Made by a program: the position numbers and the translations under genes. DNA of 34,416 nt, from IMG/VR virus record IMGVR_UViG_3300030118_000474, positions 1-34,416 of that record; one strand, written 5' to 3'. The DNA comes from a virus. Numbering within the stretch: position 1 is the stretch's first letter; each line of letters starts with the position of its first letter. The notes below the pieces were generated by a model that was not told the origin of the DNA, ran no database searches, and worked only from the letters and a program-made list of their open reading frames with translations. Of the stretch, positions 1,812-34,416 are shown one piece after another.

Positions 1812-2223
1812 ATCAAAGTCTGAGAGAATAACAAACGATTTTTTAAAGGATAAGAAGGTTTCTTTTAAATTTGAACCATACTTTATTAAATATATGTGGG
1901 TTGAAAATAAAAAATATCTGCCTGATTTTGTCCTAGACAATGGTGTTGTTTTAGAAGTGAAAGGTAGATTTACTTTAGATGACAGAAAGAAGCATCTCTT
2001 TCTTAGAAAAAGTAACCCCGACTTGGACGTTAGATTTGTATTTAATAACCCAAACTCTAAACTTTACAAAGGGGCTAAATCAACCTATGCTAACTGGTGT
2101 AGTAAGCACGGTTTTTTATTTTGTAAATTGTCTGATGGTATTCCTGAAGGTTGGATAAGTGGAAAAAAAAGAAACAAAAATTCTTCTAGAAATAGAAGAG
2201 ATAATAAAAAGAAGAAAAGCTGA
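1798..2223 (+). CDS. Endonuclease I, T7 gp3-like Holliday-junction resolvase
   Basis: The 141-residue protein aligns by eye with T7 gp3 over nearly its whole length. The catalytic set E9, D43 (in LPDF), E53 and K55 (in LEVKG) corresponds to T7 E20, D55, E65 and K67. The following DDRKKHL and KLYKG motifs are also typical. In T7 the enzyme resolves branched DNA before packaging and helps degrade host DNA. The start lies inside the 3' end of the preceding nuclease gene. The C-terminus is a Lys/Arg-rich tail (KKRNKNSSRNRRDNKKKKS) that overlaps the next reading frame. Identification is strong. Confidence 0.95.
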   Translation: MTRFRSKSERITNDFLKDKKVSFKFEPYFIKYMWVENKKYLPDFVLDNGVVLEVKGRFTLDDRKKHLFLRKSNPDLDVRFVFNNPNSKLYKGAKSTYANWCSKHGFLFCKLSDGIPEGWISGKKRNKNSSRNRRDNKKKKS

Positions 2224-5118: not shown

Positions 5119-5598
5119 ATGAATATAGAATTACTACAAGCTCATAATAAAAACGCACTACACTCTATAAATGACAACGTAAAAGAGTTATTGAAAAACT
5201 TTAGTGTTGGTTTTGAAGATTATCTTTCTTCACCAATGTTGTCTTTCCACAAAGATAATGCAACTACATTCCCATTCCATGACATTTCTAAAGATGGAGA
5301 TGATGGATATATTTTAGAAATTGCTTTGGCAGGATATTCTAAAGAAGATATAACAGTAGAAGAAAGAGACGGCTTTTTAACTGTTGCTTCCAGTGATTTC
5401 TACAATAAAAAAGAATTAGCAGAAGAAGTTGCTGATGCTATTGTGGTAAAAAATATTTCAAAAAGAAAATTTAAAAGAACATTTTCTTTAAATCCCAACT
5501 ATGTTGTAGCTGCCGCAGAAATGGTAGACGGTTTACTAAAAGTAAAATTAAAGATGAAAGCTGACGATCAACATAAAAAAGTAATCCCAATAGAATAG
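5119..5598 (+). CDS. hsp20: Small heat-shock protein (Hsp20/IbpA family)
   Basis: The 159-residue protein is an ATP-independent holdase that would keep unfolding proteins soluble during infection. The alpha-crystallin domain spans about residues 60-147, with YILEIALAGYSKEDI at its start and the conserved DGLLKV strand at 137-142. A C-terminal IPI (156-158) is the I-x-I motif used for oligomer assembly. The start is supported by AGGAGA five bases upstream and by the promoter ahead of it. Hsp20 is a recurrent accessory gene of marine T4-like cyanophages. Its presence here with RNR and a 2OG oxygenase resembles that set, in a phage whose virion genes look podoviral. Confidence 0.93.
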   Translation: MNIELLQAHNKNALHSINDNVKELLKNFSVGFEDYLSSPMLSFHKDNATTFPFHDISKDGDDGYILEIALAGYSKEDITVEERDGFLTVASSDFYNKKELAEEVADAIVVKNISKRKFKRTFSLNPNYVVAAAEMVDGLLKVKLKMKADDQHKKVIPIE

Positions 5599-21920: not shown

Positions 21921-22805
21921 TTAAACTGGTGCTGAAACAGCTACATCAAGAATAGATATTGATGTTTTAACTGTAAAATCTGAACCAAAACCTCTATTTG
22001 TAGCAAATTCAGTTGCAGCTTCTCCATCTCTTAAAGATAAATACATCATAGGTCTACTACCTGTTGGAGTTGAACCATCTGCACCTAAATCAACAGGTGT
22101 GCCATCAGCATTAATAAATTTTCTTCTATTAGATTCAATATTAAAATTAATGTACTGCCCAGGTGCATAATAATATTCTGCTAAACCTCCTCTATAAGCA
22201 GCATGCGCACCACTAGGGCCAAACAAAGAAGCGCCAATATAAAATCTTGATGCACCAGCCGTATTTAAAAATAAACCAGTAGCTGTACCAACAGACGCTT
22301 TATGAGTATCATTAACATATACATTGCCTACATTAGTTACACATGTATTAAAACTAATTTGTATACAATTCCACTGATTAGTAACAAATACATTAGACAT
22401 TCCTGCTTTTGAAAACATAAAAGATCCAGCAGGTGGTGACATAAAAGCATCATACCCACCAGCAGCATCACCTTTTCTATGAAAAAAACTATATTGAGTA
22501 GTTATTTGAGTACCATTAGTATCATTTCCTGTGACTGCTCCAGCGCTAAAAGGATATATATGTGTACCAAATCCAACATTAGCTGCTGATATTTGAGAGG
22601 GATAAATCCAATAAGACCACGATGCTTTTTTAGTATTAGCTATGAGTGTTGAACTGCTACTACTAACAGTGGCATTTGCTGTACAAGAAGTAAATAAATA
22701 ATTTAAACCCCCTGCACTTGTATTAGGGAGAAATGCAGCTTTAGGACTAAAACCTTCTTCACCTTGACCACCAGAACCAGCTAATATATTTGTATTAAAA
22801 ACCAT
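21921..22805 (-). CDS. LamG/concanavalin-like putative receptor-binding protein
   Basis: The 294-residue protein has a jelly-roll (LamG-type) signature. Segments KKASWSYWIYPSQ, NQWNCIQISFNT, GNVYVNDTHKASVG and FYIGASLFGPSG fit the alternating beta strands of such carbohydrate-binding domains. An AEYYYAPGQYINFNIESNRR stretch follows, common in phage lectin-like tail proteins. The N-terminus is Gly-rich and may be an attachment segment. The likely role is glycan recognition on the host surface. It is preceded by the repeat-containing fibre gene and followed by the assembly-like protein. Confidence 0.7.
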   Translation of the reverse strand: MVFNTNILAGSGGQGEEGFSPKAAFLPNTSAGGLNYLFTSCTANATVSSSSSTLIANTKKASWSYWIYPSQISAANVGFGTHIYPFSAGAVTGNDTNGTQITTQYSFFHRKGDAAGGYDAFMSPPAGSFMFSKAGMSNVFVTNQWNCIQISFNTCVTNVGNVYVNDTHKASVGTATGLFLNTAGASRFYIGASLFGPSGAHAAYRGGLAEYYYAPGQYINFNIESNRRKFINADGTPVDLGADGSTPTGSRPMMYLSLRDGEAATEFATNRGFGSDFTVKTSISILDVAVSAPV

Positions 22806-22818
22806 TTAAATTTAAACC

Positions 22819-24246
22819 TTATGATGTACTTGCATATGCTTTAGTTAACACTGCTTGAGTTAAGACAGCAGTATGTACTATGTAATCTAATCTGTCTATT
22901 GCATTAGCAGCAGTTGAAAGATCAGGTGCAGTTCCTCCAGCAAATTGATAATAGTTTGAATAGCCTAAAGTTCTGTTTCCTGTTCCATCTTGAACTATAA
23001 ATATACTACCTACCTGACCTGGGGTGCAATTAGTAGGATTACCTAAAGTTCTGTTATCAGTAAGAGTAACTGTAAAGTTTTGACCTGTGTTAAAATCAAC
23101 TGCAATAACTGTAGCATCTGTCAACTGATTTACATCTGCAGCGGCTGACTTAGAAATATGTATTTGTTTTTCTGGTGAAGCTTTGTCTACACCAATCTTA
23201 CTTCCTACTCTTAACTCACCACTTACAGATGCAGAAGTTTTAACTACGAGAGTATTGAATGTTCCTTTGTCTGCAGATACACTGCCTTCAATAACAGCAT
23301 TGATAGAAGTAATAGCAGCAGCATTAACACTGGTCAAAGCACTGACTGCTGCAATGTTTGTATTGCTGTTTCCTATACTTGTAGCTAATGCTGACGATAC
23401 AGCCGCCAACTCTGCCGATGTAGCAAAGTTAGATCCATCTCCAAGAATAGAATTAATCGATGTAATAGCTGCATTACTATTTCCTATACTTGTAGCTAAT
23501 GCCGATGACACAGCAGCCAGTTCCGCTGATGTAGCAAAGTTAGAACCGTCTCCTAGTATGGAGTTAATAGAGGTTATAGCTGCTTTATTTACACTTGTAA
23601 GTGCGCTAACTGCAGCTATATCTGAAGCAGTAGGAACTGCAGAACCACCTACAAATACATTAGTAGATGCAAATAAATTAGCTGCACTGACATTACCACT
23701 AAACTCTGCAGCAGTGCCACTGACCTTTCCATTAAATGCTGCACCACTTACAACTGTAAGCTGATTAACTGTAAATGCTGATACTGAACTAGGAGCAGTA
23801 GGTAAATTAGTTAAGTTAGATCCATCACCAAAATAAGATGCTGCGCTAACATTGCCACTAAATTCTGCTGCAGTTCCGCTAACCTTACCTGTAAACGATG
23901 CTCCACTAACTACTGTTAATTGATTTATTGTAAATGTTGATACAGATGTTGGTATAGATGCTTCTACACCTGTTAAATTAGAACCGTCACCAAAATATGT
24001 TGATGCACACACAGTAGCTATTAGAGTTGCAGCATTAGCTGTTATGTTTCCTGATGCGCTAAGATTAGCACCAACTGTTAGTTTACCTGTTGTCTCTACT
24101 TCAGAGTTACTTATTTTTAAGGCTGAGTTTGTTCCTTCACCGTCTGAAACAAAACGTACAGTTGAATCTACACCACTGTTACTGTTACTTACCTGAAGTA
24201 AATCTTTGTAACTGTTTGATATGAGTTTGCCAGTAAGTGTTGCCAT
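22819..24246 (-). CDS. Repeat-containing tail fibre protein
   Basis: A 475-residue protein if translation starts at the ATG overlapping the upstream stop codon (TAATG at 24248-24244); a start five codons earlier is less likely. The centre consists of internal repeats. One is a 53-residue unit with NQLTVVSGA, FSGNVSAA and FGDGSNL; the other is a 37-residue unit, twice in tandem, with SINSILGDGSNFATSAEL. Such repeats suit a trimeric beta-structured shaft. The C-terminal portion (DVNQLTDATVIAVDFNTGQN and onward) resembles pyocin/phage fibre head domains. It probably forms the distal fibre with the neighbouring lectin-like protein. Confidence 0.8.
   Translation of the reverse strand: MATLTGKLISNSYKDLLQVSNSNSGVDSTVRFVSDGEGTNSALKISNSEVETTGKLTVGANLSASGNITANAATLIATVCASTYFGDGSNLTGVEASIPTSVSTFTINQLTVVSGASFTGKVSGTAAEFSGNVSAASYFGDGSNLTNLPTAPSSVSAFTVNQLTVVSGAAFNGKVSGTAAEFSGNVSAANLFASTNVFVGGSAVPTASDIAAVSALTSVNKAAITSINSILGDGSNFATSAELAAVSSALATSIGNSNAAITSINSILGDGSNFATSAELAAVSSALATSIGNSNTNIAAVSALTSVNAAAITSINAVIEGSVSADKGTFNTLVVKTSASVSGELRVGSKIGVDKASPEKQIHISKSAAADVNQLTDATVIAVDFNTGQNFTVTLTDNRTLGNPTNCTPGQVGSIFIVQDGTGNRTLGYSNYYQFAGGTAPDLSTAANAIDRLDYIVHTAVLTQAVLTKAYASTS
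23362..23583 (-). repeat. Two tandem 111-bp coding repeats in the fibre gene
   Basis: Units 23473-23583 and 23362-23472 encode the same 37 residues, including SINSILGDGSNFATSAEL. The DNA copies differ at many third codon positions, so the protein is conserved while the DNA has diverged. This points to an old duplication held by selection rather than a recent slippage event. Confidence 0.8.
23665..23949 (-). repeat. Two 53-residue-period coding repeats in the fibre gene
   Basis: Residues encoded at 23791-23949 and 23665-23790 share a pattern of NQLTVVSGA, GKVSGTAAEFSGNVSAA and related positions. The second copy is cut short by the following AAVSALTSVN region. As with the tandem pair, synonymous differences separate the DNA copies. 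Confidence 0.7.
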
Positions 24247-24524
24247 TATATTAAATTCCAAAATCTATCTGTGTCTTCCCATTTAGTATTAGCATTTTGC
24301 CACTCAATGCCTCTATCTAAGTTAGACGGTGGACGAGGATTACGAATATTTATATCATCTCTTACATCAGGTACTTTATTCTGCGGATGATTTTTTAAAT
24401 CATATGCTCCATCAAAATCAGTAGGACAAACAAGTAAACCATAACTGTTTAGTTTCATTACCCTGTGAGGATAAACAAAACCGCATATATCACATACAGC
24501 TTTGGCGTTCTTATTGCTTGCCAT
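24246..24524 (-). CDS. Small protein with zinc-ribbon-like cysteines
   Basis: The 92-residue protein has C11-x2-C14 (AVCDICGFVYPH) and a third cysteine at 33 in LLVCPTDFDG. These, with nearby His residues (H20, H46), could bind a metal. The C-terminus contains NIRNPRPPSNLDRGIEW, reminiscent of small tail-module proteins in marine podoviruses. It lies between the tail adaptor and the fibre gene, and its stop codon overlaps the fibre start. The function is unknown; a structural metal site is inference. Confidence 0.7.
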   Translation of the reverse strand: MASNKNAKAVCDICGFVYPHRVMKLNSYGLLVCPTDFDGAYDLKNHPQNKVPDVRDDINIRNPRPPSNLDRGIEWQNANTKWEDTDRFWNLI

Positions 24525-24526
24525 TA

Positions 24527-25201
24527 TTATAACCTATTTATTCTAGGTAAAAAATAAGCACTTGCTCTTTCTCTGTCTTCATCCATAGCGTGCATAAGAC
24601 GTTCTTCATACTCTGCTTTGAGAAGACCAATCCGACCTACGTCAACACCTGGACGTTTCATAGCCATGTAATAAGCCAGACCTGTAGTAAGACAAGGAAG
24701 AAATCTACGAGATATATCAGCATTCTGACCAGCAGATTTTGTTACATCTTCTGTATGCTTAACCTGCTCCAGCTTTAGAATATCTGTAGTATTATCTGGC
24801 ACAGGCCAAAGGAATAAAACAGGATTGCCTCTCTCTCTACGAATAGCATATTGATTAGGTCTTCCTGTTTGACTCTTACGAGGAATCTTTAAATATTCTT
24901 CCATCGTAATACGTTCAAGCTGAAGATCAATATTATCTCTTCGTAAAACTGCTTCGGTAACATCAATGGTGCTTGAAGTTAAAGCATAAGATGTTACACT
25001 GGTAGATACTGAGATAGCAGTAGTACCAGCAGTCCAAAGAAGAATGCCACGGTTCTGCCAATCTTGGAGAAGAAGATTAATTGATCTACGAGCAGACTTA
25101 GGTTCATGTCCCAGTGTCTGCTCACCACCAATCATCTCCGTTGCTTCTTGAATAACTTCATCAATATCCATTGAGAAGTCGTATGTTCCGCTAGTACCCA
25201 T
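24527..25201 (-). CDS. Tail adaptor/accessory protein (P22 gp4-like role)
   Basis: The 224-residue protein has features of a widespread podovirus connector family. DIDEVIQEATEMIGGE is followed by SARRSINLLLQDWQNRGI, a central beta region with ERITMEEYLKIPRKSQTGRP and FLWPVPDNT, and a C-terminal helical AEYEERLMHAMDEDRERAS. These proteins join the portal or adaptor ring to the tail hub. TAGGA lies about 10 nt before the ATG. The family pattern is recognised from memory; the exact ring position is not resolvable here. Confidence 0.75.
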   Translation of the reverse strand: MGTSGTYDFSMDIDEVIQEATEMIGGEQTLGHEPKSARRSINLLLQDWQNRGILLWTAGTTAISVSTSVTSYALTSSTIDVTEAVLRRDNIDLQLERITMEEYLKIPRKSQTGRPNQYAIRRERGNPVLFLWPVPDNTTDILKLEQVKHTEDVTKSAGQNADISRRFLPCLTTGLAYYMAMKRPGVDVGRIGLLKAEYEERLMHAMDEDRERASAYFLPRINRL

Positions 25202-25211
25202 TTAGTTATTC

Positions 25212-25415
25212 CTAGTCGTTGTATTCTATGATTTTTCCTGGCTCATAGTCCACTACAACATCCTGCTCTGCAGCTTTAATCTGTGGACCTTTACGTGCAG
25301 CGCCATACCCCTGACCAGTAGGACGACCCGTCATCTTGTCTATGTCTTCTGCAGTGCGAGGATTACGAATATAATTAAAAGTATATTCAGTTATCCCTTT
25401 TGGATTGTTAGACAT
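25212..25415 (-). CDS. Small unknown protein ahead of the tail adaptor
   Basis: The 67-residue polar protein (MSNNPKGITEYTFNYIRNPR through DYEPGKIIEYND) has no recognised motif. Its start is well supported by AAGGAGA, 5-6 bases upstream. Those bases are also the last Arg codons of the preceding 42-residue gene. It sits between the basic-protein block and the tail adaptor gene and is probably a minor virion protein. Confidence 0.65.
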   Translation of the reverse strand: MSNNPKGITEYTFNYIRNPRTAEDIDKMTGRPTGQGYGAARKGPQIKAAEQDVVVDYEPGKIIEYND

Positions 25416-25417
25416 GT

Positions 25418-25546
25418 TTATCTCCTTCTAGATCTTCTTCGCCTGTTAGTTTTCAAAGCAAGCGATCTAATAAGTTTTTTACTTTTTTTCTTTTTAGAAG
25501 GTGCTTTGATAATCTGTTGGCTTATCTTTGACCTGTTTATTGTCAT
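25418..25546 (-). CDS. 42-residue Arg/Lys-rich protein
   Basis: This short frame (ATG at 25546-25544, TAA at 25420-25418) encodes 18 Lys/Arg among 42 residues and no acidic residue. It includes PSKKKKSKKLIRS and ends in NRRRRSRRR. It begins 2 nt after the stop codon of the SKGGAMK-repeat gene. Its last codons supply the Shine-Dalgarno of the next gene. That tight fit, and the lack of any other frame in this interval, support it as real. It resembles a protamine-like DNA-binding tail. The function is inferred. Confidence 0.65.
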   Translation of the reverse strand: MTINRSKISQQIIKAPSKKKKSKKLIRSLALKTNRRRRSRRR

Positions 25547-25548
25547 TA

Positions 25549-25707
25549 CTAGTAAAGACGATTATGAGGTGCTTTAGTAGATTTTTTCTTCATAGCACCA
25601 CCCTTTGAAGCATTCTTAGTTCCTTTTTTCATTGCTCCACCTTTAGACATGTACTTAGTATTTTTCATAGCGCCGCCCTTAGACATATATTTAGTGTGTT
25701 TAGGCAT
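25549..25707 (-). CDS. 52-residue lysine-rich tandem-repeat protein
   Basis: The frame runs from ATG at 25707-25705 to TAG at 25551-25549 and overlaps the upstream gene by 8 bp. Residues 5-16, 17-29 and 30-42 are three copies of a 12-13 residue unit, consensus T-K-Y-M-S-K-G-G-A-M-K-K. By my count it has 14 Lys and 1 Arg and no acidic residue. The periodic basic repeat suggests binding along DNA or along an ordered virion surface. No named family is recognised. Confidence 0.7.
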   Translation of the reverse strand: MPKHTKYMSKGGAMKNTKYMSKGGAMKKGTKNASKGGAMKKKSTKAPHNRLY

Positions 25708-26371
25708 CTTCAGTCTCCTCTTGATACAAGTTGTTAAAAGTTAAATATGGATTCATGTAGCTGTCGTGTATTTCTGCTGAATGAACATACTGACTTGGTG
25801 CAAAGTCTGGCGCACCTTCACCAGTTACCCATAAAGCAGGATTAGTAACTCTAACCCTATTATTTGGTAGTGCTACTATATTACCAGTATATGGTCCTGC
25901 ATCAATCAACTCTATAACATGTGACTGTTTATGTTGTGCAGGATCATCTGATATAGAACTATCCGTATAATCTACTGTAAACAAATACCTCCCAGTGTGA
26001 AAAACATTATCTATTTTACATAACCACGGACTTGATGATATTCTGTCCATTACTATTATAGCATGATTTCTAGAAGAACAGTCCCAAGGTTGTGCTAAAT
26101 GTGTCGGCATTTTAACAGGCCATTCTTCTAATCTGGTGTCAGCTATCAAAGCTGTGATAGGCATCCTTGCCCACATTGCTCCACCATGTACATTTTCTTC
26201 TTCATCGCATCCAGTAAATACAACATTAAAAGTTAATGATCTGTCTGGTATTGTATTAACTGCAATTACTAAAGCGTGTAAATATTCTCCTTCATAGTCC
26301 ATGTGGTTATTAGTAAATTCTTTTCGTACCCAACACTTAAACTGTGGGATGTTTGAACTTAAATATGCCAT
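25700..26371 (-). CDS. Conserved-looking phage protein of unknown function
   Basis: The 223-residue protein is the one non-basic, globular-looking product inside the basic-protein block. It contains alternating beta-like segments (YLHALVIAVNTI, LTFNVVFTG, HAIIVMDRIS, GRYLFTVDYTD, NRVRVTNPALWVTGEGAPDF) and four cysteines. No catalytic motif stands out. The ATG lies one base after the stop codon of the 97-residue basic gene. A minor capsid or connector role is possible from position. I recall similar sequences in marine phage genomes but not a function. Confidence 0.75.
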   Translation of the reverse strand: MAYLSSNIPQFKCWVRKEFTNNHMDYEGEYLHALVIAVNTIPDRSLTFNVVFTGCDEEENVHGGAMWARMPITALIADTRLEEWPVKMPTHLAQPWDCSSRNHAIIVMDRISSSPWLCKIDNVFHTGRYLFTVDYTDSSISDDPAQHKQSHVIELIDAGPYTGNIVALPNNRVRVTNPALWVTGEGAPDFAPSQYVHSAEIHDSYMNPYLTFNNLYQEETEDA

Positions 26372-26372
26372 T

Positions 26373-26666
26373 TTATTTTTTACTTTTGTGTTTCTTTCTT
26401 AATGTTTGTTTAGCAACTTTTGCCAACCTGGATTGTTCAGGTTTGTTTGCAAACTTTGCGCGTTGTTCCAATACTGTTAATATCTGTATTTTTCTTGCAT
26501 ATGGCTTTCTTATCCTTTTAACTTTTGCAATAGTATCTTTAGCATCCTTAATTGTAGCATACTTTATACCTACTGTATCCTTTGGATTTTCATCTGTATA
26601 AAGTCTACGACCAGAACCTTTAGGTTTTTTTCCTGTTCCTACTTTTGGGTCTTTTACTTTTCTCAT
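26373..26666 (-). CDS. Basic 97-residue protein, giant-virus-type domain
   Basis: The protein starts MRKVKDPKVGTGKKPKGSG and continues RRLYTDENPKDTVGIKYAT, DAKDTIAKVKRIRKPYARKI and VLEQRAKFANKPEQSRLAK. Its end, TLRKKHKSKK, is strongly basic. I recall this domain (Pfam DUF5824, name to be verified) from marine phages and large algal viruses. The conserved GSGRRLYTDENPKDTV and KPYARKIQILTV segments make it more than a generic basic peptide. Its first 47 bp overlap the end of the 47-residue gene in another frame. The function is unknown; a nucleic-acid-binding virion role is plausible. Confidence 0.75.
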   Translation of the reverse strand: MRKVKDPKVGTGKKPKGSGRRLYTDENPKDTVGIKYATIKDAKDTIAKVKRIRKPYARKIQILTVLEQRAKFANKPEQSRLAKVAKQTLRKKHKSKK

Positions 26667-26763
26667 TTTTCTTCACATAGTTTTTAATAATATTAGATTG
26701 CTGTTTATGTAAACGAGAGGCTTTTGATAATGCTTTAGAAACTTTTTTTAACTTTTTAACCAT
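26620..26763 (-). CDS. 47-residue lysine-rich protein
   Basis: The ATG at 26763-26761 follows the TAG of the 186-residue gene with no gap, and the frame ends at TAA 26622-26620. The product (MVKKLKKVSKALSKASRLHK onward) has 19 Lys/Arg in 47 residues and one Glu. It overlaps the next gene by 47 bp, and both frames of the overlap encode basic peptides. Direct abutment to the upstream stop codon and absence of any other frame in 26667-26760 support it. Confidence 0.65.
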   Translation of the reverse strand: MVKKLKKVSKALSKASRLHKQQSNIIKNYVKKNEKSKRPKSRNRKKT

Positions 26764-27324
26764 CTAACATCTCCACCTTCTTCTGGCTTGTCTAAGTCTT
26801 GAGTTAGGATTCTTTGCAGCTTTAGGAAACTTTTTCATTTGTCCTGCTGATCTGGCACAAAAACTTTTTCTTCTGGCTGCTCTTGCTTTAGTTCTTGGTT
26901 TCTTTTCAGTCACAGCAGTTTGAAGTTTACTACCAGGATTTTGTCTTCTGTATTTTGCTACCCCTTTAGCAGTTAGACCTGCACCAGCTTTTGTGGGACG
27001 CTTATCTCCTTTACCGATAGTAAGACCTTTCATGCCTTTACCAGTAGTTTTCTTTTTCTTTTTAGCTGCCACAGTACCACCCTTTTTTCTAAAAGCTTTT
27101 GTTTTCTTTGCGATAGATTTAGGTTGTTTAGAAAATTGTTTTCCTTTTTTAGTATCTTTTCTTTTCTTTCTACTTGTAGCAGCATATTCTGCAGGAGACA
27201 ATGCCGCTATAGCTTTAGATGGTAAATAACGTTCACCAGTTTTAGCTGAAGGCTTTCCTGACTTTGTACGCCACTTCTGCTTTGTCCAATCTTTTAAACT
27301 CTTCTGTGATTTTTTTAAAGCCAT
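26764..27324 (-). CDS. Highly basic 186-residue protein with two conserved domains
   Basis: By my count the protein has about 63 Lys/Arg and 6 Asp/Glu. The N-terminal domain (about 12-70) reads WTKQKWRTKSGKPS, GERYLPSKAIAALSPAEYAA and KKRKDTKKGKQF. The C-terminal domain (about 118-186) has TAKGVAKYRRQNPGSKLQTA, RRKSFCARSAGQMKKF and NPNSRLRQARRRWRC. I recall both segments as conserved domains of marine phages and nucleocytoplasmic large DNA viruses (Pfam DUF5872 and DUF6321, to be verified). A Lys run (KKKKK) links them. The composition suggests a histone-like, virion-packaged DNA binder. Two cysteines sit in the conserved C-terminal motifs. Confidence 0.8.
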   Translation of the reverse strand: MALKKSQKSLKDWTKQKWRTKSGKPSAKTGERYLPSKAIAALSPAEYAATSRKKRKDTKKGKQFSKQPKSIAKKTKAFRKKGGTVAAKKKKKTTGKGMKGLTIGKGDKRPTKAGAGLTAKGVAKYRRQNPGSKLQTAVTEKKPRTKARAARRKSFCARSAGQMKKFPKAAKNPNSRLRQARRRWRC

Positions 27325-27326
27325 TT

Positions 27327-27533
27327 TTACTTGTATCCACCACCCGCAGCTTTATATTGTTTAGCCAGCATTTGCGCTTTTCTTGCACTCCACTGACCAG
27401 GATTTCCACCCTTGCTGCCAGCTTTAATTTTATTAAATAATCTTTTACGCATAGTAGGTTTAGTATAATTACCAGCTTGATTAACTTTAGATTTAGATTT
27501 ACGGACAGCTTTCTTTCTCATTTTTATACCCAT
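27327..27533 (-). CDS. Basic 68-residue protein with conserved GGNPGQWSARKAQ motif
   Basis: The protein has 20 Lys/Arg and no acidic residue among 68. The conserved portion is GNYTKPTMRKRLFNKIKAGS followed by KGGNPGQWSARKAQMLAKQY and AAGGGYK. I recall it as a recurring partner of the preceding-type domains in marine phages and giant viruses. The start at 27533 overlaps the previous stop codon by 10 bp; an ATG four codons later is an alternative. It is two bases from the 186-residue gene, so co-translation is likely. Confidence 0.75.
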   Translation of the reverse strand: MGIKMRKKAVRKSKSKVNQAGNYTKPTMRKRLFNKIKAGSKGGNPGQWSARKAQMLAKQYKAAGGGYK

Positions 27534-28399
27534 CTATTAGTTTTACCTTTAGATTGCCTACCTATTTTACCACCAACTTTCATTGTTTTAAAACCTCTCA
27601 TTGCAGCACGAACACCACGAGGTGCTTTACTTACTTTTTTCTTTTTACCTTTTCCTACACGACCACCTTTGAAGTCACCTTCATAAAGTTCTGCTTCTTC
27701 TAGTCTTTCACGTATTTCATCAGGCATTTTATTCTTGTCTACTTCATACATTAATCCTAAATCTTTTGAAGTTTGACCAGGATAAAAAGCAAAACGTCCA
27801 CCTTCTGTTGGATCTTTCTCAGGTTTTGTTTTTTGAGGTTTAGTTTTTTTAGTAGTAGAAATAGGAGCAGGTTTTTTAATTGGCTTTGTTTTCTTAGGAG
27901 TGGTTTTTTTAGGAGTAGATTTTTTACTATCACTACCCATAATAGAACCTGCTGCTGCTGTACCTACAACAGCCGCTGCAGTTCTGGTTTGTTTGGCTTT
28001 TTCCTGAGCAGCTTTAGATATTGGCCTAGCTCCTAATGGCTTACCGTCTGGACCTTTCTTAAATCTTGATGTAACAAGATTACTTTTTTTAGAACCAACT
28101 TTTTTATCTAATCCAAATGCTAATCTAAGAGCATCTTTATTATCTTTACTATTTAATGCTGTTCTAACATTTTTAACAAAGTTTGGTCCTCTTGTCGCTA
28201 ATGCTTTTCCAATTTTTGCAGCACCTAAACCAGGAATAGCAAGACTAGCTATTTCTGCAACAAGTTGTCCTTGTTTTCTTCTTTTTTGAAGTTTAGGACT
28301 TTCTGCTATTCTTTTGCTTTTTTCTTCAGCTTCTGTTTTCCCAACTTTACCCCTATCTTTTCTTCTTTTAAATTCTTCTATTTGTTTTAATGTAGCCAT
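27524..28399 (-). CDS. Basic, Lys/Pro-rich structural-region protein
   Basis: The 291-residue protein has a charged helical N-terminus (about 1-45) and a hydrophobic Ala/Gly segment (about 50-70, IASLAIPGLGAAKIGKAL). A Lys/Pro/Thr-rich linker follows (about 158-198, repeated PKKT/TKPxK), then a globular stretch with FAFYPGQTSKDLG. The C-terminal tail has GGRVGKGKKKKVSKAPRG and AMRGF. That tail is shared with the 97-residue protein encoded upstream. AAAGGATAT precedes the ATG. No family is recognised; a DNA- or scaffold-binding virion protein is inferred. Confidence 0.75.
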   Translation of the reverse strand: MATLKQIEEFKRRKDRGKVGKTEAEEKSKRIAESPKLQKRRKQGQLVAEIASLAIPGLGAAKIGKALATRGPNFVKNVRTALNSKDNKDALRLAFGLDKKVGSKKSNLVTSRFKKGPDGKPLGARPISKAAQEKAKQTRTAAAVVGTAAAGSIMGSDSKKSTPKKTTPKKTKPIKKPAPISTTKKTKPQKTKPEKDPTEGGRFAFYPGQTSKDLGLMYEVDKNKMPDEIRERLEEAELYEGDFKGGRVGKGKKKKVSKAPRGVRAAMRGFKTMKVGGKIGRQSKGKTNRWV

Positions 28400-28417
28400 A
28401 ATAATATCCTTTCTTAA

Positions 28418-28711
28418 CTAAAAGCCGCGTAAAGCAACACCTGCTCCACGACCTAAAAAGTTAGCTCTTTTTTTAACTACAACCTTTTTTTTCTTACCTT
28501 TTCCTACACGACCACCAGCAGACTCACCCTGCGCTGACATTAGTTTTTCAAAGGTAGGCATGTTTGCTTGTTGCTTTTCATAAGCTTCATCAAACTCTTC
28601 ATCCTTAGATTTTTTTCTACTCCCTCCTCTATTCATAGCATCAATTTCTCTTTGATACTTTGAAGCAGGACTTTCATTGGGATTAAGAGGATCAAAGATA
28701 GGACCAGCCAT
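28418..28711 (-). CDS. 97-residue protein with basic C-terminal tail
   Basis: The N-terminal part is polar and helical (SPASKYQREIDAMNRGG and DEEFDEAYEKQQANMPTFEK). The C-terminus is AGGRVGKGKKKKVVVKKRAN and ends ALRGF, matching the tail of the next protein downstream. AAAGGAG precedes the ATG. It opens the basic-protein block directly after the head-tail connector gene. The function is unknown; the shared tail suggests a common binding partner inside the virion. Confidence 0.7.
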   Translation of the reverse strand: MAGPIFDPLNPNESPASKYQREIDAMNRGGSRKKSKDEEFDEAYEKQQANMPTFEKLMSAQGESAGGRVGKGKKKKVVVKKRANFLGRGAGVALRGF

Positions 28712-28722
28712 TATAGTCTCCT

Positions 28723-29379
28723 TTAATTAGTATTAGCTACCAGATTGTCATCTGCACCAGCAGGACTTGCAGGAGTCTGCATGTCATCTCTACGTGTTCT
28801 ACGTGCCTGATTACGCTGTAACTCTAGAAGCTGTGCATATCGTTGTTCATATAATTGTGAAGTGGGATAATCTTTTTGAAACATCATTGCCTCTATCATA
28901 GAAGCATTATAAAGAAGGTCGTAACAAAAATCAGTAAAATAGTTTTCAGGAGTTGCGGATGTTAATGTTACTGGGCGATTAACATGAACGACCTGTCCAC
29001 TGTAAGTAGATGCAGGAGTAGGTGCAATTAAAACTGTAGAATTATTACGAGGCGCATAATACCTTGGTTCATCAGTTGATGCGCTTACAGGCCAGTAATC
29101 ATTAATATATTCATCAGTTCGTTGCAGTAAATTAATCTTTGTAGAGTCGCTTATAATATTAATATTCTTAACTATGCGTGTGCCTGTGGGTAAGGTAAGG
29201 ATATTGTTTCCAGAAGAAACAGCAACAGAAGTATAAGAGACTAAACCATAGTCATCCAAATCTTTTGTCAGACGTTCTTCGGCACGATTAACCATCTTAG
29301 GAATATAGTTAATAAACTCTGTTCCTTCATTTTCAGATGTCTGAATAATATCGTTTACCAGATAAGTATAATCAACCAT
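28723..29379 (-). CDS. Head-tail connector/adaptor-like protein
   Basis: The 218-residue protein has an N-terminal helical portion, YIPKMVNRAEERLTKDLDDY, typical of gp6/gp8-type connector proteins. A beta-rich middle follows (VSSGNNILTLPTGTRIVKNI, PRYYAPRNNSTVLIAPTP). The C-terminal helix has FCYDLLYNASMIEAMMFQK, SQLYEQRYAQLLELQRNQAR and a polar tail. The family is common in marine podoviruses. It overlaps the 101-residue gene by 8 bp and precedes the basic-protein block. The connector role is from pattern and order. Confidence 0.75.
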   Translation of the reverse strand: MVDYTYLVNDIIQTSENEGTEFINYIPKMVNRAEERLTKDLDDYGLVSYTSVAVSSGNNILTLPTGTRIVKNINIISDSTKINLLQRTDEYINDYWPVSASTDEPRYYAPRNNSTVLIAPTPASTYSGQVVHVNRPVTLTSATPENYFTDFCYDLLYNASMIEAMMFQKDYPTSQLYEQRYAQLLELQRNQARRTRRDDMQTPASPAGADDNLVANTN

Positions 29380-29677
29380 AGAATACTGCTGTTGTAGCTG
29401 TTGAACTTGGAGCAGAAACTACAACTGTTCCTTTCATCGCAATACCTAAATCAGAGAAATAAACTTCGTTTGCATCCGATGCTGTCGTATTTACAAACCT
29501 AATATTATTTCCTTTAACCGTACCTCGCGCATCAGTAGAAGTTCCAGTGATAAGAAACTGACCAATACCTGTAGCAAATACAGAGCGAATACGTGTGTCT
29601 GCGAGAGAAACACTGGTTACAGTATCAAGAACTGCTCCACTTCCAGTTACAAATCCTTGTCGAAGAGTGGTTGCCAT
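29372..29677 (-). CDS. Small beta-rich virion-region protein
   Basis: The 101-residue protein (MATTLRQGFVTGSGAVLDTV through SSTATTAVFYG) is Ser/Thr/Val-rich with predicted beta strands and no charged clusters. This fits a head-decoration or head-completion subunit. AAAGGAAC lies 7-8 bases ahead of the ATG. It is the first gene after the terminator and candidate promoter that separate it from the capsid gene. The exact role is unknown. Confidence 0.7.
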   Translation of the reverse strand: MATTLRQGFVTGSGAVLDTVTSVSLADTRIRSVFATGIGQFLITGTSTDARGTVKGNNIRFVNTTASDANEVYFSDLGIAMKGTVVVSAPSSTATTAVFYG

Positions 29678-29717
29678 GTTTTGTTCCTTTACATAAACAG
29701 AAGATAATTATTTATAT

Positions 29718-29746
29718 TATATATCAAGACAGGTAATTAGAAAAGC
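29718..29746 (-). promoter_or_regulatory. Candidate promoter behind the capsid terminator
   Basis: On the - strand a perfect TATAAT at 29723-29718 stands 17 bp after TTTTCT (29746-29741), a weak -35. It lies between the terminator hairpin and the next gene's Shine-Dalgarno, a sensible place to restart transcription of the connector and tail genes. AT-rich sequence makes chance matches common. Confidence 0.4.
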
Positions 29747-29750
29747 AAAG

Positions 29751-29790
29751 GGTGAAGAAAAAGAATTGTGCGTCTTTCTCTCCACCCTTA
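29751..29790 (-). terminator. Rho-independent terminator after the major capsid gene
   Basis: Arms 29775-29790 and 29751-29766 form a 16-bp stem around an 8-nt loop. In the - strand RNA two positions are G-U pairs; in the + strand RNA they would be A-C mismatches. The hairpin is therefore built for - strand transcripts. It is followed by TTGCTTTTCT, a U-rich tail. It probably limits read-through so that capsid and upstream head genes are expressed above downstream genes. Confidence 0.8.
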
Positions 29791-29827
29791 TTTAACCTAG
29801 TCTATACTAACCTAGTTTACACGGCTC

Positions 29828-30772
29828 TTAGGAAGAACCTGAAGCACCGTAATAGCTACGCCAATCAGAAAAGCCAAAGCTGTAACGCTCACGCGCTTTA
29901 AATCTAAGATTACCTGTATCGAAATCAGGTTCCATCTTAGTTTGAAGAGGTGAACGAACAAACATTTTAGCACCATTTGGGCAGTCAGTACGCAAGAACC
30001 AAGCATTACCGTCTTGGAATCTACGGTTTACATAAAAACCACCAGGAACTAAACCTTGACTGCGGATGCTGTTAATGTCGTTAACATTTGTTGCACCATT
30101 ACCAGCAGTCGTTGGGTTAACTCCAATAGTCGTTGACAGCGTGCTATTCAAGATTTGGTCTGCTGTGAAAGCAAGATCAGGCGGCACATGAAGTGATTCA
30201 ACCTGTAGACCAATAAGAATACCACGATCATCTTCTGCTTTTGAGATAGTAATCAAAGCCGACTCAAGAGATGCTTCTGAAAGATCAGTAGCACCAAGAG
30301 TGTTGGATTGAGTACCACCACCAACTACTGGATGACTAGCACTAAAGAAAGGCTGTCCGTCCCCACCAGGACTTCCTGCCGCAAAGCCGTTGTTGAAAAC
30401 ATCAGCAGCTTTAACTTGTTTAGTGTTTGCCATTGCACGAGCAAGACCACGCGCACGTAGTTTAGCAAAAGTGTCATAAAGATTATCTTCCATAGCTTCT
30501 TCAGTTACTGCAAAAGCAAGAGCTATTGTCTCGTGGCTGTAACGAGAAGCATAGCCTTCTTGTGCATCATCAAACTGAACGGCAGCACCTTCACTTTTAA
30601 CAGGTGCAGTGCCAAAGCCAGTGAATAGAACTTCTTCCTCAAACGCACGATCTGACTGTTCAATATCAAAGAGTGGAGCATGTTCATTATCCACATCATT
30701 GTATTCAATGCCAAATACAGCATTTAATCCTGGGAGCAGTTCTTTCGCAATACTAGAGCGATTAATAGCCAT
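29828..30772 (-). CDS. Major capsid protein (Mu gpT-like/HK97 fold)
   Basis: The 314-residue protein matches a common podovirus capsid family. The N-terminus MAINRSSIAKELLPGLNAVF is followed by HETIALAFAVTEEAMEDNLY, helical KLRARGLARAMANTKQ, PFFSASHPV and VESLHVPPDL. It ends FKARERYSFGFSDWRSYYGA. The FGFSDWRxYYG ending is characteristic of these HK97-fold proteins. AGGAAGGGAG precedes the ATG. It lies behind scaffold-like and decoration-like genes and ahead of a strong terminator, as expected for the most expressed virion gene. Confidence 0.88.
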   Translation of the reverse strand: MAINRSSIAKELLPGLNAVFGIEYNDVDNEHAPLFDIEQSDRAFEEEVLFTGFGTAPVKSEGAAVQFDDAQEGYASRYSHETIALAFAVTEEAMEDNLYDTFAKLRARGLARAMANTKQVKAADVFNNGFAAGSPGGDGQPFFSASHPVVGGGTQSNTLGATDLSEASLESALITISKAEDDRGILIGLQVESLHVPPDLAFTADQILNSTLSTTIGVNPTTAGNGATNVNDINSIRSQGLVPGGFYVNRRFQDGNAWFLRTDCPNGAKMFVRSPLQTKMEPDFDTGNLRFKARERYSFGFSDWRSYYGASGSS

Positions 30773-30790
30773 TTGTTATTACTCCCTTCC

Positions 30791-31378
30791 TTAGTTAGCC
30801 GATGAGTCAGCGGAGATGTAAGCATCTACGTGACGCACGATACGAACTTCAAGTTTCGGGAAGGCACGATCTGCGGCAACAGTAATATCATTTCCTGGCT
30901 CATCCAGTACAGCGATGGGACGAAGCATTCCACCTGTGGTGGTGGTGCGAGAACCAGCTTCAATTCCAAAGCCTGAACGACCAGTTACCGTAGAACCTGC
31001 ACCCAATGTGCAACTAAAGTTCTGTGACATAATATCACCAGCGGTGACAGAAGCATCAGCTTGAACTATAAAGGTAGCTTGCGGATCATCAACAACGAAC
31101 GCAACCGCATCGTCAGATGACGTACCACTAGGCCAATAGTTAGAATACTTAATTTCACCGTTAGCAGTATATTTACAACCCTGAAAAACACCTATAGCTT
31201 TTTGAGTTGAAACGCTCAAAACGACCACATTTCCTGCAGCATTACATACAATATCACCACTGAAGATATTGGTTGAGAAACCACTTGCAATGGGATACTC
31301 ATTCGTAGCGTTGCTGTTAACAGCGCCACCACGTTTGCGAGAAGGAGTAAGGCCGTTTAGTGCTTTAGTATCAGTCAT
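30791..31378 (-). CDS. Putative head decoration/stabilisation protein
   Basis: The 195-residue protein starts MTDTKALNGLTPSRKRGGAV and has NIFSGDIVCNAAGNVVVLS, AIGVFQGCKYTANGEIKYSN and FIVQADASVTAGDIMSQNFS. This beta-rich pattern (GFxxxxxxGGxxN, aIFxGDxV, GVFxGCxY) recurs next to capsid genes of marine podoviruses. The likely role is a capsid surface subunit made in amounts similar to the capsid protein. GGAAAGGAAT precedes the ATG. Confidence 0.7.
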   Translation of the reverse strand: MTDTKALNGLTPSRKRGGAVNSNATNEYPIASGFSTNIFSGDIVCNAAGNVVVLSVSTQKAIGVFQGCKYTANGEIKYSNYWPSGTSSDDAVAFVVDDPQATFIVQADASVTAGDIMSQNFSCTLGAGSTVTGRSGFGIEAGSRTTTTGGMLRPIAVLDEPGNDITVAADRAFPKLEVRIVRHVDAYISADSSAN

Positions 31379-31425
31379 AACACTATTCCTTTCCTTGTTT
31401 TAAGTTACGATGACAAACAGGAAAG

Positions 31426-31908
31426 CTACTCTTGAAAAGAAGGTTGCCTCCCTGTAGTTACCCTTGAGCGACTGGAGTTTGATATCGGCATACGTGAGTC
31501 TGAATTACGCATTAGTTGTGCGTTTACAGCGCCTACCGCATCTCTACTCTTTTGCTCATAAAATTCTTGACGGGATTCAGCCAGGTCAGTTGGCATCTTT
31601 GCCAAAGCCAAGTCTCCACGACAGACTGCTCCTGAATATCGTCCTTCCTCTCTCACGACAGAGGAGTGTGTCATTTCGGGAACTTCCTCGGACTGAACTA
31701 TCTCCCAACCTTCGGCCTGACGTTTACTTATATTTTGAATATCGTCATTACCTTTAATTGTCATTCTGATCCAGCGTAAAGACATGCCTTCACTTTTGAA
31801 TCTTTCTGTGACAGTTGGGGGAATGTCTAACCAATTAGGTTCTTCAAATGTCCTACGAGGTTTAGCTTCCCTTGTGCTACTACTACGTGAGTTTGTATTT
31901 CGTGCCAT
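31426..31908 (-). CDS. Head-region protein of unknown function
   Basis: The 160-residue protein is read from the ATG at 31908 (MARNTNSRSSSTREA), which has GAAGGAAA upstream; a GTG six codons earlier overlaps that ribosome site and is less likely. Ordered parts include EEPNWLDIPPTVTERFKSEG, MSLRWIRMTIKGNDDIQNIS and RQAEGWEIVQSEEVPEM. I recall this pattern beside scaffold genes of marine podoviruses. The C-terminus is Ser/Arg-rich. A minor head or scaffold-associated role is inferred. Confidence 0.7.
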   Translation of the reverse strand: MARNTNSRSSSTREAKPRRTFEEPNWLDIPPTVTERFKSEGMSLRWIRMTIKGNDDIQNISKRQAEGWEIVQSEEVPEMTHSSVVREEGRYSGAVCRGDLALAKMPTDLAESRQEFYEQKSRDAVGAVNAQLMRNSDSRMPISNSSRSRVTTGRQPSFQE

Positions 31909-31928
31909 TGTAAATTTTCCTTCCACGC

Positions 31929-32948
31929 TTAATTAAAAATGCTAGTGTAATCGCCTTCAGCTTTTTCAACTTTCAGCTTTTCCGCAGCATATTGTTCAAG
32001 TGATATCCCCCATTTGTTAGCTAAACGAACATCTTCTTGCGTTAGTTTAACTTTATTACCCTTAGAGGTTTTAGGTGTGCGTGATGCACCAGCTACCACT
32101 TGAGCAGAATTTGACGGTGTATCCTGCAAACGGGGTGTTTCAGGTTCTTGGGCAGAAGTATCCTGAAACCTTTGAGGATAACGACTACGTAATCTGTTGT
32201 CGATTTCCTCATAAAAATCATCATCAGAAGGATCGTATCCTTCATCTTTTAACTCTTGATCTATTGACAAAGCGGCGGTAGTCATTATCTGATCTTTACC
32301 AAACCAATTATTTTTAGCTGCCCAATCAACAGCTTTAGGATCATATTTAGGTGTCTGTTGTTGTGGTTGACTTACCTGTGATTGCTCTGCCTGTGTGCTG
32401 TAATTTTCTAATGCTGTGCGCTGATTACTAATCTGATTAAGTTCAGCGTATGCTTTACTAATACTTTCTTGTGCTGCAATCTGAGCATCTACATCGCTAT
32501 TTTCTATAGCTTGCCTATAAATACTTTTAGCAGCTTCTAAATTACTGTTTAACTGACTTTCACTATTATCTATAGAACTTTTTAAAGAGTTAGATAATTG
32601 TTCTTCTTTTTGATTTAATTCATTCTGAAGTGTACTAAGACGCTCCTCCATCTTCTGAAGTTTCTCGTCGCGTTCCTTACGTTGACGAATTAATTGTCTG
32701 ATACGCTTTTCCGCGCCTTTAGTCTCAATACCTTCTAATTCTTTTACTGGCTTTTCTTCATTCTCAACCTTTTCAGGTTTTAAACCTTCCTGTATTTGTT
32801 CAACATAGGTCGATTCTTCTTTTTGTTCTGTAGCAGCTTGAACAGGTTCTTCTTTTGTCTCTTCACCCTCTACTTCAAACTCAACAGGTTTCTTCTTTTC
32901 TACACCATCTATTTCAATGGTTGACCATTCCTCTTGATTCTCATTCAT
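31929..32948 (-). CDS. Scaffolding-like coiled-coil protein
   Basis: The 339-residue protein is highly charged. It has an acidic N-terminal region (about 1-85, many EEK/EEP repeats), a coiled coil (about 83-195, KRIRQLIRQRKERDEKLQKM and further heptads), and a Gln/Pro linker. The C-terminal part is VKLTQEDVRLANKWGISLEQ and EKLKVEKAEGDYTSIFN. Helical, acidic, positioned just before the capsid genes, it fits a scaffolding protein directing procapsid assembly. AAAGGA precedes the ATG. The sequence is not specific enough for more. Confidence 0.75.
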   Translation of the reverse strand: MNENQEEWSTIEIDGVEKKKPVEFEVEGEETKEEPVQAATEQKEESTYVEQIQEGLKPEKVENEEKPVKELEGIETKGAEKRIRQLIRQRKERDEKLQKMEERLSTLQNELNQKEEQLSNSLKSSIDNSESQLNSNLEAAKSIYRQAIENSDVDAQIAAQESISKAYAELNQISNQRTALENYSTQAEQSQVSQPQQQTPKYDPKAVDWAAKNNWFGKDQIMTTAALSIDQELKDEGYDPSDDDFYEEIDNRLRSRYPQRFQDTSAQEPETPRLQDTPSNSAQVVAGASRTPKTSKGNKVKLTQEDVRLANKWGISLEQYAAEKLKVEKAEGDYTSIFN

Positions 32949-33045
32949 TACTTTTCCTTTACATACCGCTAGTGGCGAACCTAACGAATTGAGGTTTATC
33001 CTGCGCCTTTACTATATTTTATATTATGAAATATAAATATACAAA
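32949..33045 (-). other. AT-rich intergenic stretch with imperfect 21-bp palindrome
   Basis: The interval between the GroES stop and the scaffold Shine-Dalgarno contains an AT-only near-palindrome around 33013-33035 (ATATTTCATAATATAAAATAT on the - strand, one mismatch). It could be a promoter region or processing site for the capsid-proximal genes. No -35/-10 pair with proper spacing is convincing, and no reading frame is supported. Confidence 0.35.
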
Positions 33046-33465
33046 TTAATTTGAAAGATTAAAAGTCGGGTCAAGCATATGTGGACTTTGTACCCGCATA
33101 ATAATCTGATCATCAAACAGAAGAATTAGTTTAAGACCTTTGTATACAAACTTCTGACCACTGAACTTTCCATAGCAAACATAATCACCTGTAGCACACC
33201 ACTCACCTAACGGAAACTTCTCTTTGTCCTTGTAAGCAAGATCGCCCAGTTTTAATACTCTGCCTACCGTTGTAAGATATGCTATATCATCCTTTAACTT
33301 TTCTGGGATAATAATACCACCTTTAGTTTTTTCTTTTACTACTACTGGTTGAACTAAAACATGATAACCAGGAATATCTGGCAAGTCATTCACATCAATT
33401 AGATTACTGTCTGGATTTACCCAATCTGAATTATTAATTGATTTGTCTAACTGTACAGCTTGCAT
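33046..33465 (-). CDS. groES: GroES-like co-chaperonin with N-terminal extension
   Basis: The 139-residue protein contains the GroES fold. PGYHVLVQPVVVKEKTKGGI (about 32-51) covers the first strands and mobile loop that contacts GroEL. VGRVLKLGD follows at about 67-75, then ATGDYVCYGKFSGQKFVYKG and DDQIIMRV. It is longer than bacterial GroES (about 95 residues), with roughly 28 extra residues in front and a 14-residue tail. In T4 the equivalent gp31 redirects host GroEL to fold the capsid protein. The location just ahead of scaffold and capsid genes supports that role. The start shares a base with the upstream stop codon. Confidence 0.9.
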   Translation of the reverse strand: MQAVQLDKSINNSDWVNPDSNLIDVNDLPDIPGYHVLVQPVVVKEKTKGGIIIPEKLKDDIAYLTTVGRVLKLGDLAYKDKEKFPLGEWCATGDYVCYGKFSGQKFVYKGLKLILLFDDQIIMRVQSPHMLDPTFNLSN

Positions 33466-33656
33466 TAATTTTCTTCCTCATATATTCGGTGTTTAACTAT
33501 ATACTTCAATAAGTCTTGTGCAAATTCAATACCCTCTATCAGACCTACTGCCTGACGATATTCATCGTAACTAGAGGCATTTCCATATGCAAGAGATTTT
33601 TTTGTTTCTTCTATCTTTTCTTCAAACTTTAAATTTAACTCGTCCCAAAATTCCAT
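33465..33656 (-). CDS. Small acidic helical protein between portal and GroES
   Basis: The 63-residue protein (MEFWDELNLKFEEKIEETKK through IVKHRIYEEEN) is largely helical and acidic with no known motif. AAAGGATAAC precedes its ATG, and it shares one base with the GroES start. From its position it could assist portal or prohead assembly. Small proteins at this site are common in marine podoviruses. I do not recognise a named family. Confidence 0.7.
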   Translation of the reverse strand: MEFWDELNLKFEEKIEETKKSLAYGNASSYDEYRQAVGLIEGIEFAQDLLKYIVKHRIYEEEN

Positions 33657-33658
33657 TG

Positions 33659-34416
33659 TTATCCTTTATTACTGTCAGAGATAAACTTACTCAGCATGTC
33701 TGCTGCTTTAAGAGTTTTGTCTCTATCAATATTTGCCTCTGTGTCTGCCAATTCAAGTAGTGCTTCCATAGCTGCAATAGCTTTCTTAGACTCTCTGTTA
33801 CGTTCAGAATCTTCTGCTTTTGCTGTAATACTAGCACCTTCTTTGAACATGTCCAGTTGAATTTGCAGTTCTTTAAGATCAAGTTCACGTTGTTTATTGG
33901 CAGCATTAACTGCTTCTTTAGCTGCCTGTGTCTGAACCTTTTGCTGCTCAAGACCAAGCTTCTGTCCTTCAATCTGAACAAGCTGTGCTTCAGGTGACAT
34001 AGCCTGTTGTTGCATAGCAGCAACCTGATTAGCTTGCATAACCTGTTGAGCGGCAGTAGCCATAACTGCTGAAATTAGATCAGGATTATTTGGATCAATG
34101 CCCTGCTGTTCTGCTTCATCACCATATGTAGAAATCATTTCCTCTGTTATACCAGTGATCTGTTCCTGATATTTTAACATAAGATGTTCCTGCATGTTTG
34201 CTTCTAAAATTGGTGCTATCCGTTTCATTAATGGGTTAGCACCATTAGCAGGGTCTTGTAGATATGTAGTTTTAACTTGTATATGGGCATCATGGTTTTG
34301 ACCAGGAAATGCTTTAATAGCCATACCTTTAACTGCTGCACTAATATCACTGAGAGGATCAAGCGGTACAGGCTTTGGCTTGCTTGGCATGATCTTATCT
34401 AAGTTAGGAATATTTG
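33659..34416 (-). CDS. Portal protein, C-terminal part (partial)
   Basis: The frame stays open to the right edge; the ATG at 34390 is internal (upstream codons read NIPNLDKI), so about 252 C-terminal codons are visible. The first part has a DPLSDISAAVKGMAIKAFPG segment and TYLQDPANGANPLMKRIAPI. A long Gln/Ala-rich helical region follows (AVMATAAQQVMQANQVAAMQ, EGQKLGLEQQKVQTQAAKE). Such tails end the long portal proteins of marine podoviruses and may form the internal barrel. The rest of the gene, and perhaps the large terminase, lie beyond the window. Identification depends on tail pattern and gene order. Confidence 0.65.
   Translation of the reverse strand, partial: NIPNLDKIMPSKPKPVPLDPLSDISAAVKGMAIKAFPGQNHDAHIQVKTTYLQDPANGANPLMKRIAPILEANMQEHLMLKYQEQITGITEEMISTYGDEAEQQGIDPNNPDLISAVMATAAQQVMQANQVAAMQQQAMSPEAQLVQIEGQKLGLEQQKVQTQAAKEAVNAANKQRELDLKELQIQLDMFKEGASITAKAEDSERNRESKKAIAAMEALLELADTEANIDRDKTLKAADMLSKFISDSNKG

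Follow-up and report, generated by a model that had tools for sequence, protein, structure and literature searches.

We analysed as a whole a 34,416-base virus record of a marine phage (IMG/VR record IMGVR_UViG_3300030118_000474; hereafter the window) whose late operon carries a block of ten genes, most of them coding for strongly Lys/Arg-rich proteins. The major capsid protein of the window shares 54% identity with its counterparts in Phage DSL-LC04 and Pelagibacter phage HTVC023P and 48% with that of Roseobacter phage CRP-901, and a megablast search with window positions 22000-34416 against phage records gave zero matches. The late operon lies on the minus strand and begins with a likely portal C-terminus, a GroES-like protein, an acidic scaffold-like protein (phrog_28737) and the major head protein (phrog_371); the names portal, GroES and scaffold are based on gene position and sequence reading. 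A connector-like gene (phrog_2941), the basic block and an adaptor-like gene (phrog_12985) come next, followed by the tail and fibre genes. The block and its two borders are listed below, with recurring protein modules named by Greek letters.

28723-29379, minus strand: connector-like virion protein (phrog_2941, profile match), the upstream border
28418-28711, minus strand: A97, 97 residues, a mixed body and a polybasic tail with an RGxGxAxRG-type end (GRGAGVALRGF)
27524-28399, minus strand: B291, 291 residues, Lys/Arg-rich and of low complexity, with the C-terminus GGRVGKGKKKKV..RGVRAAMRGF, a variant of the RG peptide
27327-27533, minus strand: C68, 68 residues without an acidic residue, the gamma module (phrog_17747, profile match)
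26764-27324, minus strand: D186, a fusion of alpha (residues 1-80, phrog_14910) and beta (residues 115-184, DUF6321), both by profile match
26620-26763, minus strand: E47, 47 residues, the eta module, overlapping the next gene by 47 nucleotides; the eta-zeta order is kept in 19 relatives
26373-26666, minus strand: F97, 97 residues, the zeta module (GSGRRLYTDENPKDTV)
25700-26371, minus strand: G223, an acidic phrog_3704 protein, a frequent companion of the block
25549-25707, minus strand: H52, 52 residues, three TKYMSKGGAMKK-like repeats and HNRLY at the end
25418-25546, minus strand: I42, a conserved N-terminus M[AVT]IxRSSIxQQIxKPxxKKKK, polybasic thereafter
25212-25415, minus strand: J67, neutral and non-basic, the tenth gene of the interval
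24527-25201, minus strand: adaptor-like protein (phrog_12985, profile match), the downstream border; its CRP-901 homologue is annotated as tail adaptor

An earlier sequence-only reading of this DNA had described ten minus-strand genes between the connector and the tail adaptor, eight of them with a basic product or a basic tail. This description was borne out, and its residue counts were reproduced exactly (63 Lys/Arg and 6 Asp/Glu in D186; no Asp/Glu in the 42-, 52- and 68-residue proteins); its range, 25418-28711, was otherwise right but left out the tenth gene (25212-25415). Lys/Arg and Asp/Glu number 19 and 1 in E47, 32 and 8 in F97, 76 and 28 in B291, and 20 and 12 in A97, which is basic in its tail only, while the other two products, of 223 and 67 residues, are acidic or neutral. 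When proteins in which Lys+Arg minus Asp+Glu reached at least 15% of residues were scored as strongly basic, 7/10 block genes qualified compared with 0/37 other genes of the window (Fisher p = 1.9e-6). Intergenic gaps in the block range from -47 to 18 nucleotides, Shine-Dalgarno-like sequences precede several of its genes, and a promoter scan found 29 sites against 26.3 expected. A 17-pair hairpin with a T-rich sequence lies directly after the major capsid gene (29748-29789, minus strand) and may terminate or damp transcription ahead of the downstream genes, the block included.

Profile searches with the block products matched D186 and C68. D186 residues 1-80 covered the full length of phrog_14910 (positions 1-80 of 80; E = 1.3e-38) and residues 115-184 matched DUF6321 (PF19846; 52.6 bits, E = 7.5e-14), exceeding the curated cut-off of 28.5 bits. 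C68 residues 9-68 matched positions 4-63 of 63 of phrog_17747 (E = 6e-38), and over 51 residues C68 shares 92% identity with the end of HMO-2011 gp63. In tblastn searches of cultured phages, D186 residues 1-79 matched HMO-2011, HTVC033P and CRP-13, residues 109-186 matched HTVC023P and residues 109-175 matched HTVC010P, and no record spanned 80% of D186. D186 is a fusion of two usually separate modules, a feature that the sequence-only reading could not see, and no second alpha-beta fusion was seen outside the window among the fetched loci. Since the alpha and beta genes overlap by 4 nucleotides in one locus (L073), the fusion may have arisen when the boundary between such neighbours was lost. 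Alpha and beta were aligned separately; a joint alignment appeared to place beta rows on the alpha region.

Relatives were collected as 80 IMG/VR records fetched via the capsid protein. In the 23 records, window included, that hold the borders in the expected order, the connector-adaptor interval contains 3 to 12 open reading frames (ORFs), on average 59% strongly basic, and in cultured HTVC023P the set has the same place (gp50-gp53, just ahead of gp54). The multi-component set that had been described in the late structural operon thus recurs at the same place in relatives, and the block observation is confirmed to extend far beyond the window. Median amino-acid identity among relatives was 0.72-0.74 for alpha, 0.86-0.89 for beta and 0.73-0.75 for gamma, with a proportion of synonymous differences (pS) of 0.63-0.82 and a nonsynonymous to synonymous ratio (pN/pS) of 0.20-0.29, which indicates purifying selection. 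Conservation was greater than that of the connector in 139/152 pairs for alpha, 169/171 for beta and 64/78 for gamma, counts that are descriptions and not tests because genome pairs are non-independent. Constraint on these three modules is comparable to that on the capsid protein; it is weaker on zeta and on the I42 N-terminus. Because identity stays at 72-89% despite near-saturated synonymous sites, the Lys richness is not an accident of an A-rich strand, and an artefact of coding or strand composition is ruled out by conservation and pN/pS. The near-saturated synonymous sites also make recent transfer an unlikely source of the high identity among relatives.

Iterative searches on the same loci yielded the module profiles, so the counts describe the fetched loci, not the whole collection. 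Relatives carry further modules, among them delta, epsilon (DUF5872-like) and zeta, in shuffled and fused arrangements beside the terminase or major-head genes of several lineages. Epsilon resembles DUF5872 (PF19197) at sub-cut-off scores only, as do delta and epsilon in locus L011; a Pfam search of the window proteins gave no DUF5872 match, and the window block is without epsilon. Gamma, often encoded directly ahead of alpha, was present in 72/80 loci fetched for alpha, and the gamma-alpha pair was in order in 60 cases, reversed in none and far apart in 41. The 79 loci fetched for beta hold epsilon in 41 and delta in 40. Where adjacent, delta-epsilon order was kept in 45 cases against 0 reversed and eta-zeta order in 19 against 0, and alpha-beta order is free. 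Among the fusions are gamma-alpha (15 ORFs), epsilon-delta-beta (7), kappa-gamma (6) and delta-epsilon (3).

Cultured phages carry the same modules. In HTVC023P, beta is gp43 and is followed by the phrog_3704-like gp44. Immediately ahead of gp54, a protein similar at its start to the window adaptor, come gp50 (I42 motif), gp51 (delta with an RG-type end), gp52 (epsilon) and gp53, which has a similar RG motif. Gamma and alpha occur in HMO-2011, MEP402, CRP-13, HTVC034P and Lederberg, adjacent in all except HMO-2011. Epsilon, delta and beta form one protein near the terminase genes in T4-like cyanophages (P-SSM2_123, S-SM1_115, Syn9 gp114, S-SCSM1_29), and epsilon-, delta- and beta-like genes stand side by side ahead of the terminase in CRP-7. 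That a single protein in one phage corresponds to neighbouring genes in another argues that the modules work together. The idea of interchangeable cassettes was toned down, since at the place where HTVC034P carries beta, gamma and alpha, HTVC100P carries only beta. The acidic phrog_3704 protein also recurs beside basic genes in relatives and in HTVC023P, and G223 could be an acidic partner or chaperone; the public labels ferredoxin and PurM for it look doubtful and were not adopted.

Two C-terminal peptides are shared by proteins whose bodies are otherwise unlike. An NRLY end was found on 26 non-redundant ORFs (25 basic; 0.2 expected by shuffling) and an RGxGxAxRG-type end on 86 ORFs at 60 loci (78 basic; 6.6 expected by shuffling), and related loci feed both counts, so that events are fewer than ORFs. 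The RG peptide is present on ORFs at the B291 position in relatives. The codons of the NRLY end vary; therefore the peptide is kept, and not only the DNA. By analogy with the N-terminal tag that T4 uses, HNRLY and RGxGxAxRG may be sorting tags for head entry.

The sequence-only reading had proposed a histone- or protamine-like DNA-condensing system, or one that neutralises a scaffold, packaged in the head. A Pfam search with the ten block products gave no match to histone, HU or protamine families, and kinship with histones or protamines found no backing there or, for D186 and C68, in the PDB. One copy of each of the eight basic products carries a net charge of +208, and full neutralisation of a ~50-kb genome, a size assumed from relatives and equal to ~100,000 phosphates, would need ~480 copies of each. 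The beta protein of S-CREM2 (gp137) is net acidic over its full length. Twenty-four positions of alpha, two of them tryptophans, are invariant, as are 30 of ~55 in gamma, in contrast to protamines, which are of low complexity. Both cysteines of the beta pair are present in 173/173 ungapped rows and in D186, and the epsilon pair is kept in 68/68 rows; in the delta2 profile 28 rows have both and 13 have neither, and both are missing from the distant beta-like proteins MEP402 gp50 and L213. The conserved pair in beta, delta and epsilon fits a putative disulfide or metal site. Since the folded motifs and cysteine pairs are conserved and net charge is not, protamine-like condensation is weakened, and bulk charge neutralisation found no support in the form proposed. 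The invariant motifs, the cysteine pairs, the acidic S-CREM2 protein and the copies needed for neutralisation together make specific binding by domains the better reading; bulk condensation is more plausible for A97, B291 and H52 than for the other block proteins. A scaffold-neutralising role gained no support.

Evidence on virion association comes from relatives of beta. In S-CREM2 the DUF6321 match (109306-109518) falls at the end of gp137 (108049-109521), a protein detected in the virion proteome by mass spectrometry with 4 unique peptides and 4.1% coverage (PMC10665884). The DUF6321 protein of S-SCSM1, SSCSM1_29, bears the GenBank label 'virion protein'; the S-SCSM1 paper reports 45 virion proteins by mass spectrometry (PMC9602691), and the label probably reflects such detection. 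The earlier proposal that the block proteins are made with the virion is therefore supported in part, by the beta-bearing protein in S-CREM2 virions and the S-SCSM1 label; virion association is indicated by one or two relatives.

Taken together, these results give roughly even odds that the block encodes a set of modular proteins that are made late, associate with the virion and bind nucleic acid, the small ones folded and the low-complexity ones carried by tags. This reading draws on the genes, modules, synteny, selection and end peptides described above, on the terminase, major-head and adaptor families that predominate among large neighbours of alpha and beta genes, on the S-SCSM1 label and on the reported mass-spectrometric detection of a single beta-bearing relative in virions. 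Alpha, beta, gamma, zeta, eta and other small folded basic modules would be synthesised along with the head, would be taken into it ahead of the DNA or at the same time, and would touch the genome, possibly close to the portal. RGxGxAxRG and HNRLY would serve as C-terminal sorting tags that bring in A97 and B291, which are Lys-rich and of low complexity, and the repeat protein H52. Several observations weigh on the other side. The S-CREM2 coverage is too small to place the detection on the beta part itself, the beta protein S-SZBM1_192 is missing from the main text of the paper on S-SZBM1, whose table does list its neighbour 190 (PMC9146016), and the S-SM1 and Syn9 orthologues of the beta-bearing protein carry no structural label; tryptic mass spectrometry is biased against Lys/Arg-rich proteins. 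A PDB sequence search with D186 and C68 gave no match, and a Foldseek search with AlphaFold models (beta: predicted local distance difference test score (pLDDT) 82, predicted template modelling score (pTM) 0.62; gamma-alpha: pLDDT 75, pTM 0.50) gave none at E <= 0.001 and recognised no nucleic-acid-binding fold. Finally, in HTVC010P-type phages the genes are flanked by peptidase M15 and dnaA and lie apart from the head genes.

Gene neighbourhoods bear on an unlikely alternative, in which the modules would attach to DNA or to the terminase-portal complex while the genome is packaged or cut, and would be gone from the mature virion. Among 70 large neighbours sampled from alpha loci, terminase large subunit families are the top named class (up to 13 proteins each), followed by phrog_3704, head closure and major head families. 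Of 70 such neighbours sampled from beta loci, 11 each match the adaptor family phrog_12985 and major head or head-protease families, which rank first; some of these loci belong to the window's own phage family. The terminase follows gamma-alpha directly in MEP402, and the cyanophage protein is encoded near both terminase genes. Against this alternative, S-CREM2 gp137 was detected in virions, and the window and its relatives place the genes between connector and adaptor, not beside the terminase.

The strict conservation of folded motifs suggests specific partners, which would also suit ejected effectors of the T4 IPI kind, virion-borne or made late, whose targets in the next cell would be host nucleic acid, ribosomes or nucleases; the T4 internal proteins offer a precedent. 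We consider this improbable: neither a host target nor a Foldseek fold match was found, and no cellular parent of beta was seen because beta is rare outside viral contigs in one locus collection. A cellular origin of beta was rejected, with only 62 matches in the genome collection. Among four beta contigs inspected from it, L103 and L120 have phage head gene order; at L136:6001-6228, beta lies in an actinobacterial metagenome-assembled genome contig beside cellular-looking genes, possibly at a provirus edge or through misassembly.

Genes placed between those of the connector and the adaptor, with paired cysteines that could form stabilising disulfides, might instead encode structural glue tying capsid, connector or tail parts together without genome contact, but a fixed structural contact is poorly suited to modules that recur with different head and terminase families and at other genomic positions, and we consider this very improbable. 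That the genes are mobile passengers with no particle role is highly improbable: although module order and content are shuffled and the cyanophage T4-GC119 gene has been listed with zwf and gnd as part of a possible mobile cassette, the modules show purifying selection with synonymous sites close to saturation, keep gamma-alpha, delta-epsilon and eta-zeta order where adjacent, and retain one position across the family.

Other genes of the window and its relatives were also recorded. The GroES-like protein of the head operon (33046-33465, minus strand) has an annotated GroES at the same position in HTVC023P and CRP-901. At 1798-2223 (plus strand) a 141-residue protein resembling T7-type endonuclease I has a polybasic C-terminal tail and is not in the block, and 5119-5598 (plus strand) encodes a small heat-shock protein, Hsp20-like by sequence reading. 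A tiny conserved basic protein, MARQKFTHFVPRxKPxKRPxxHKK..., occurs in HTVC023P, HTVC010P and HTVC100P, separate from the module set described here:

L318:38632-38766, L319:25000-25128 and L089:4340-4474: MARQKFTHFVPRxKPxKRPxxHKK... protein

The module families were already known, only as function-less profiles. In the open-access library searched by full text, DUF6321 was named in no paper and DUF5872 in one, within a table, and no earlier account of the linkage, the alpha-beta fusion or the end peptides was found in the open-access literature searched. Alpha and beta are common unexplained proteins of marine viruses, each with at least ~600 matches in IMG/VR. By tying the modules to one another, to genes for the head and for packaging, and to a virion proteome, the present results make one testable system of what were scattered hypothetical proteins.

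The DUF6321 proteins of cyanophages (T4-GC119 P-SSM2_123 and S-SM1_115, Syn9 gp114, S-SCSM1_29, S-CREM2 gp137) have beta in common with the window, and most also hold delta and epsilon. The cyanophages have one long protein near the terminase, whereas in the window beta is fused to alpha within a row of small genes in the connector-adaptor interval. Window alpha and gamma match almost the whole length of phrog_14910 and phrog_17747, profiles represented in HMO-2011 (gp59/gp63), MEP402 (gp48/gp49) and HTVC034P (gp21/gp22). These cultured phages have alpha as a gene of its own, whereas in the window it is fused to beta. DUF5872 (PF19197) is also listed in the algal virus CpV-BQ1, the likeness being to epsilon and to delta and epsilon of L011, all below the cut-off. 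More tentatively, a combinatorial kit of encapsidated nucleic-acid-binding modules may be common to many marine tailed phages that are not related to one another and, given DUF5872, perhaps to algal viruses as well. Its proteins would be sorted into heads by C-terminal RGxGxAxRG and HNRLY, and its modules would be exchanged, split and fused between lineages, each under strict sequence constraint.

The adenovirus core proteins V, VII and mu are likewise several small basic proteins that are encoded together and packaged with DNA. No sequence relation between them and the block is known, and their binding and packaging are established, whereas both are inferred for the window block. We propose a further likeness to the T4 internal head proteins IPI, IPII and IPIII, which are made with the head, carried with the DNA in hundreds of copies and dispensable for assembly; no sequence match between them and the block turned up, none having been specifically sought. 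T4 internal proteins are targeted by an N-terminal sequence that a protease cleaves. The conserved end peptides of the window lie at the C-terminus instead, and if their carriers are encapsidated, these peptides would represent a new way of bringing proteins into phage heads.

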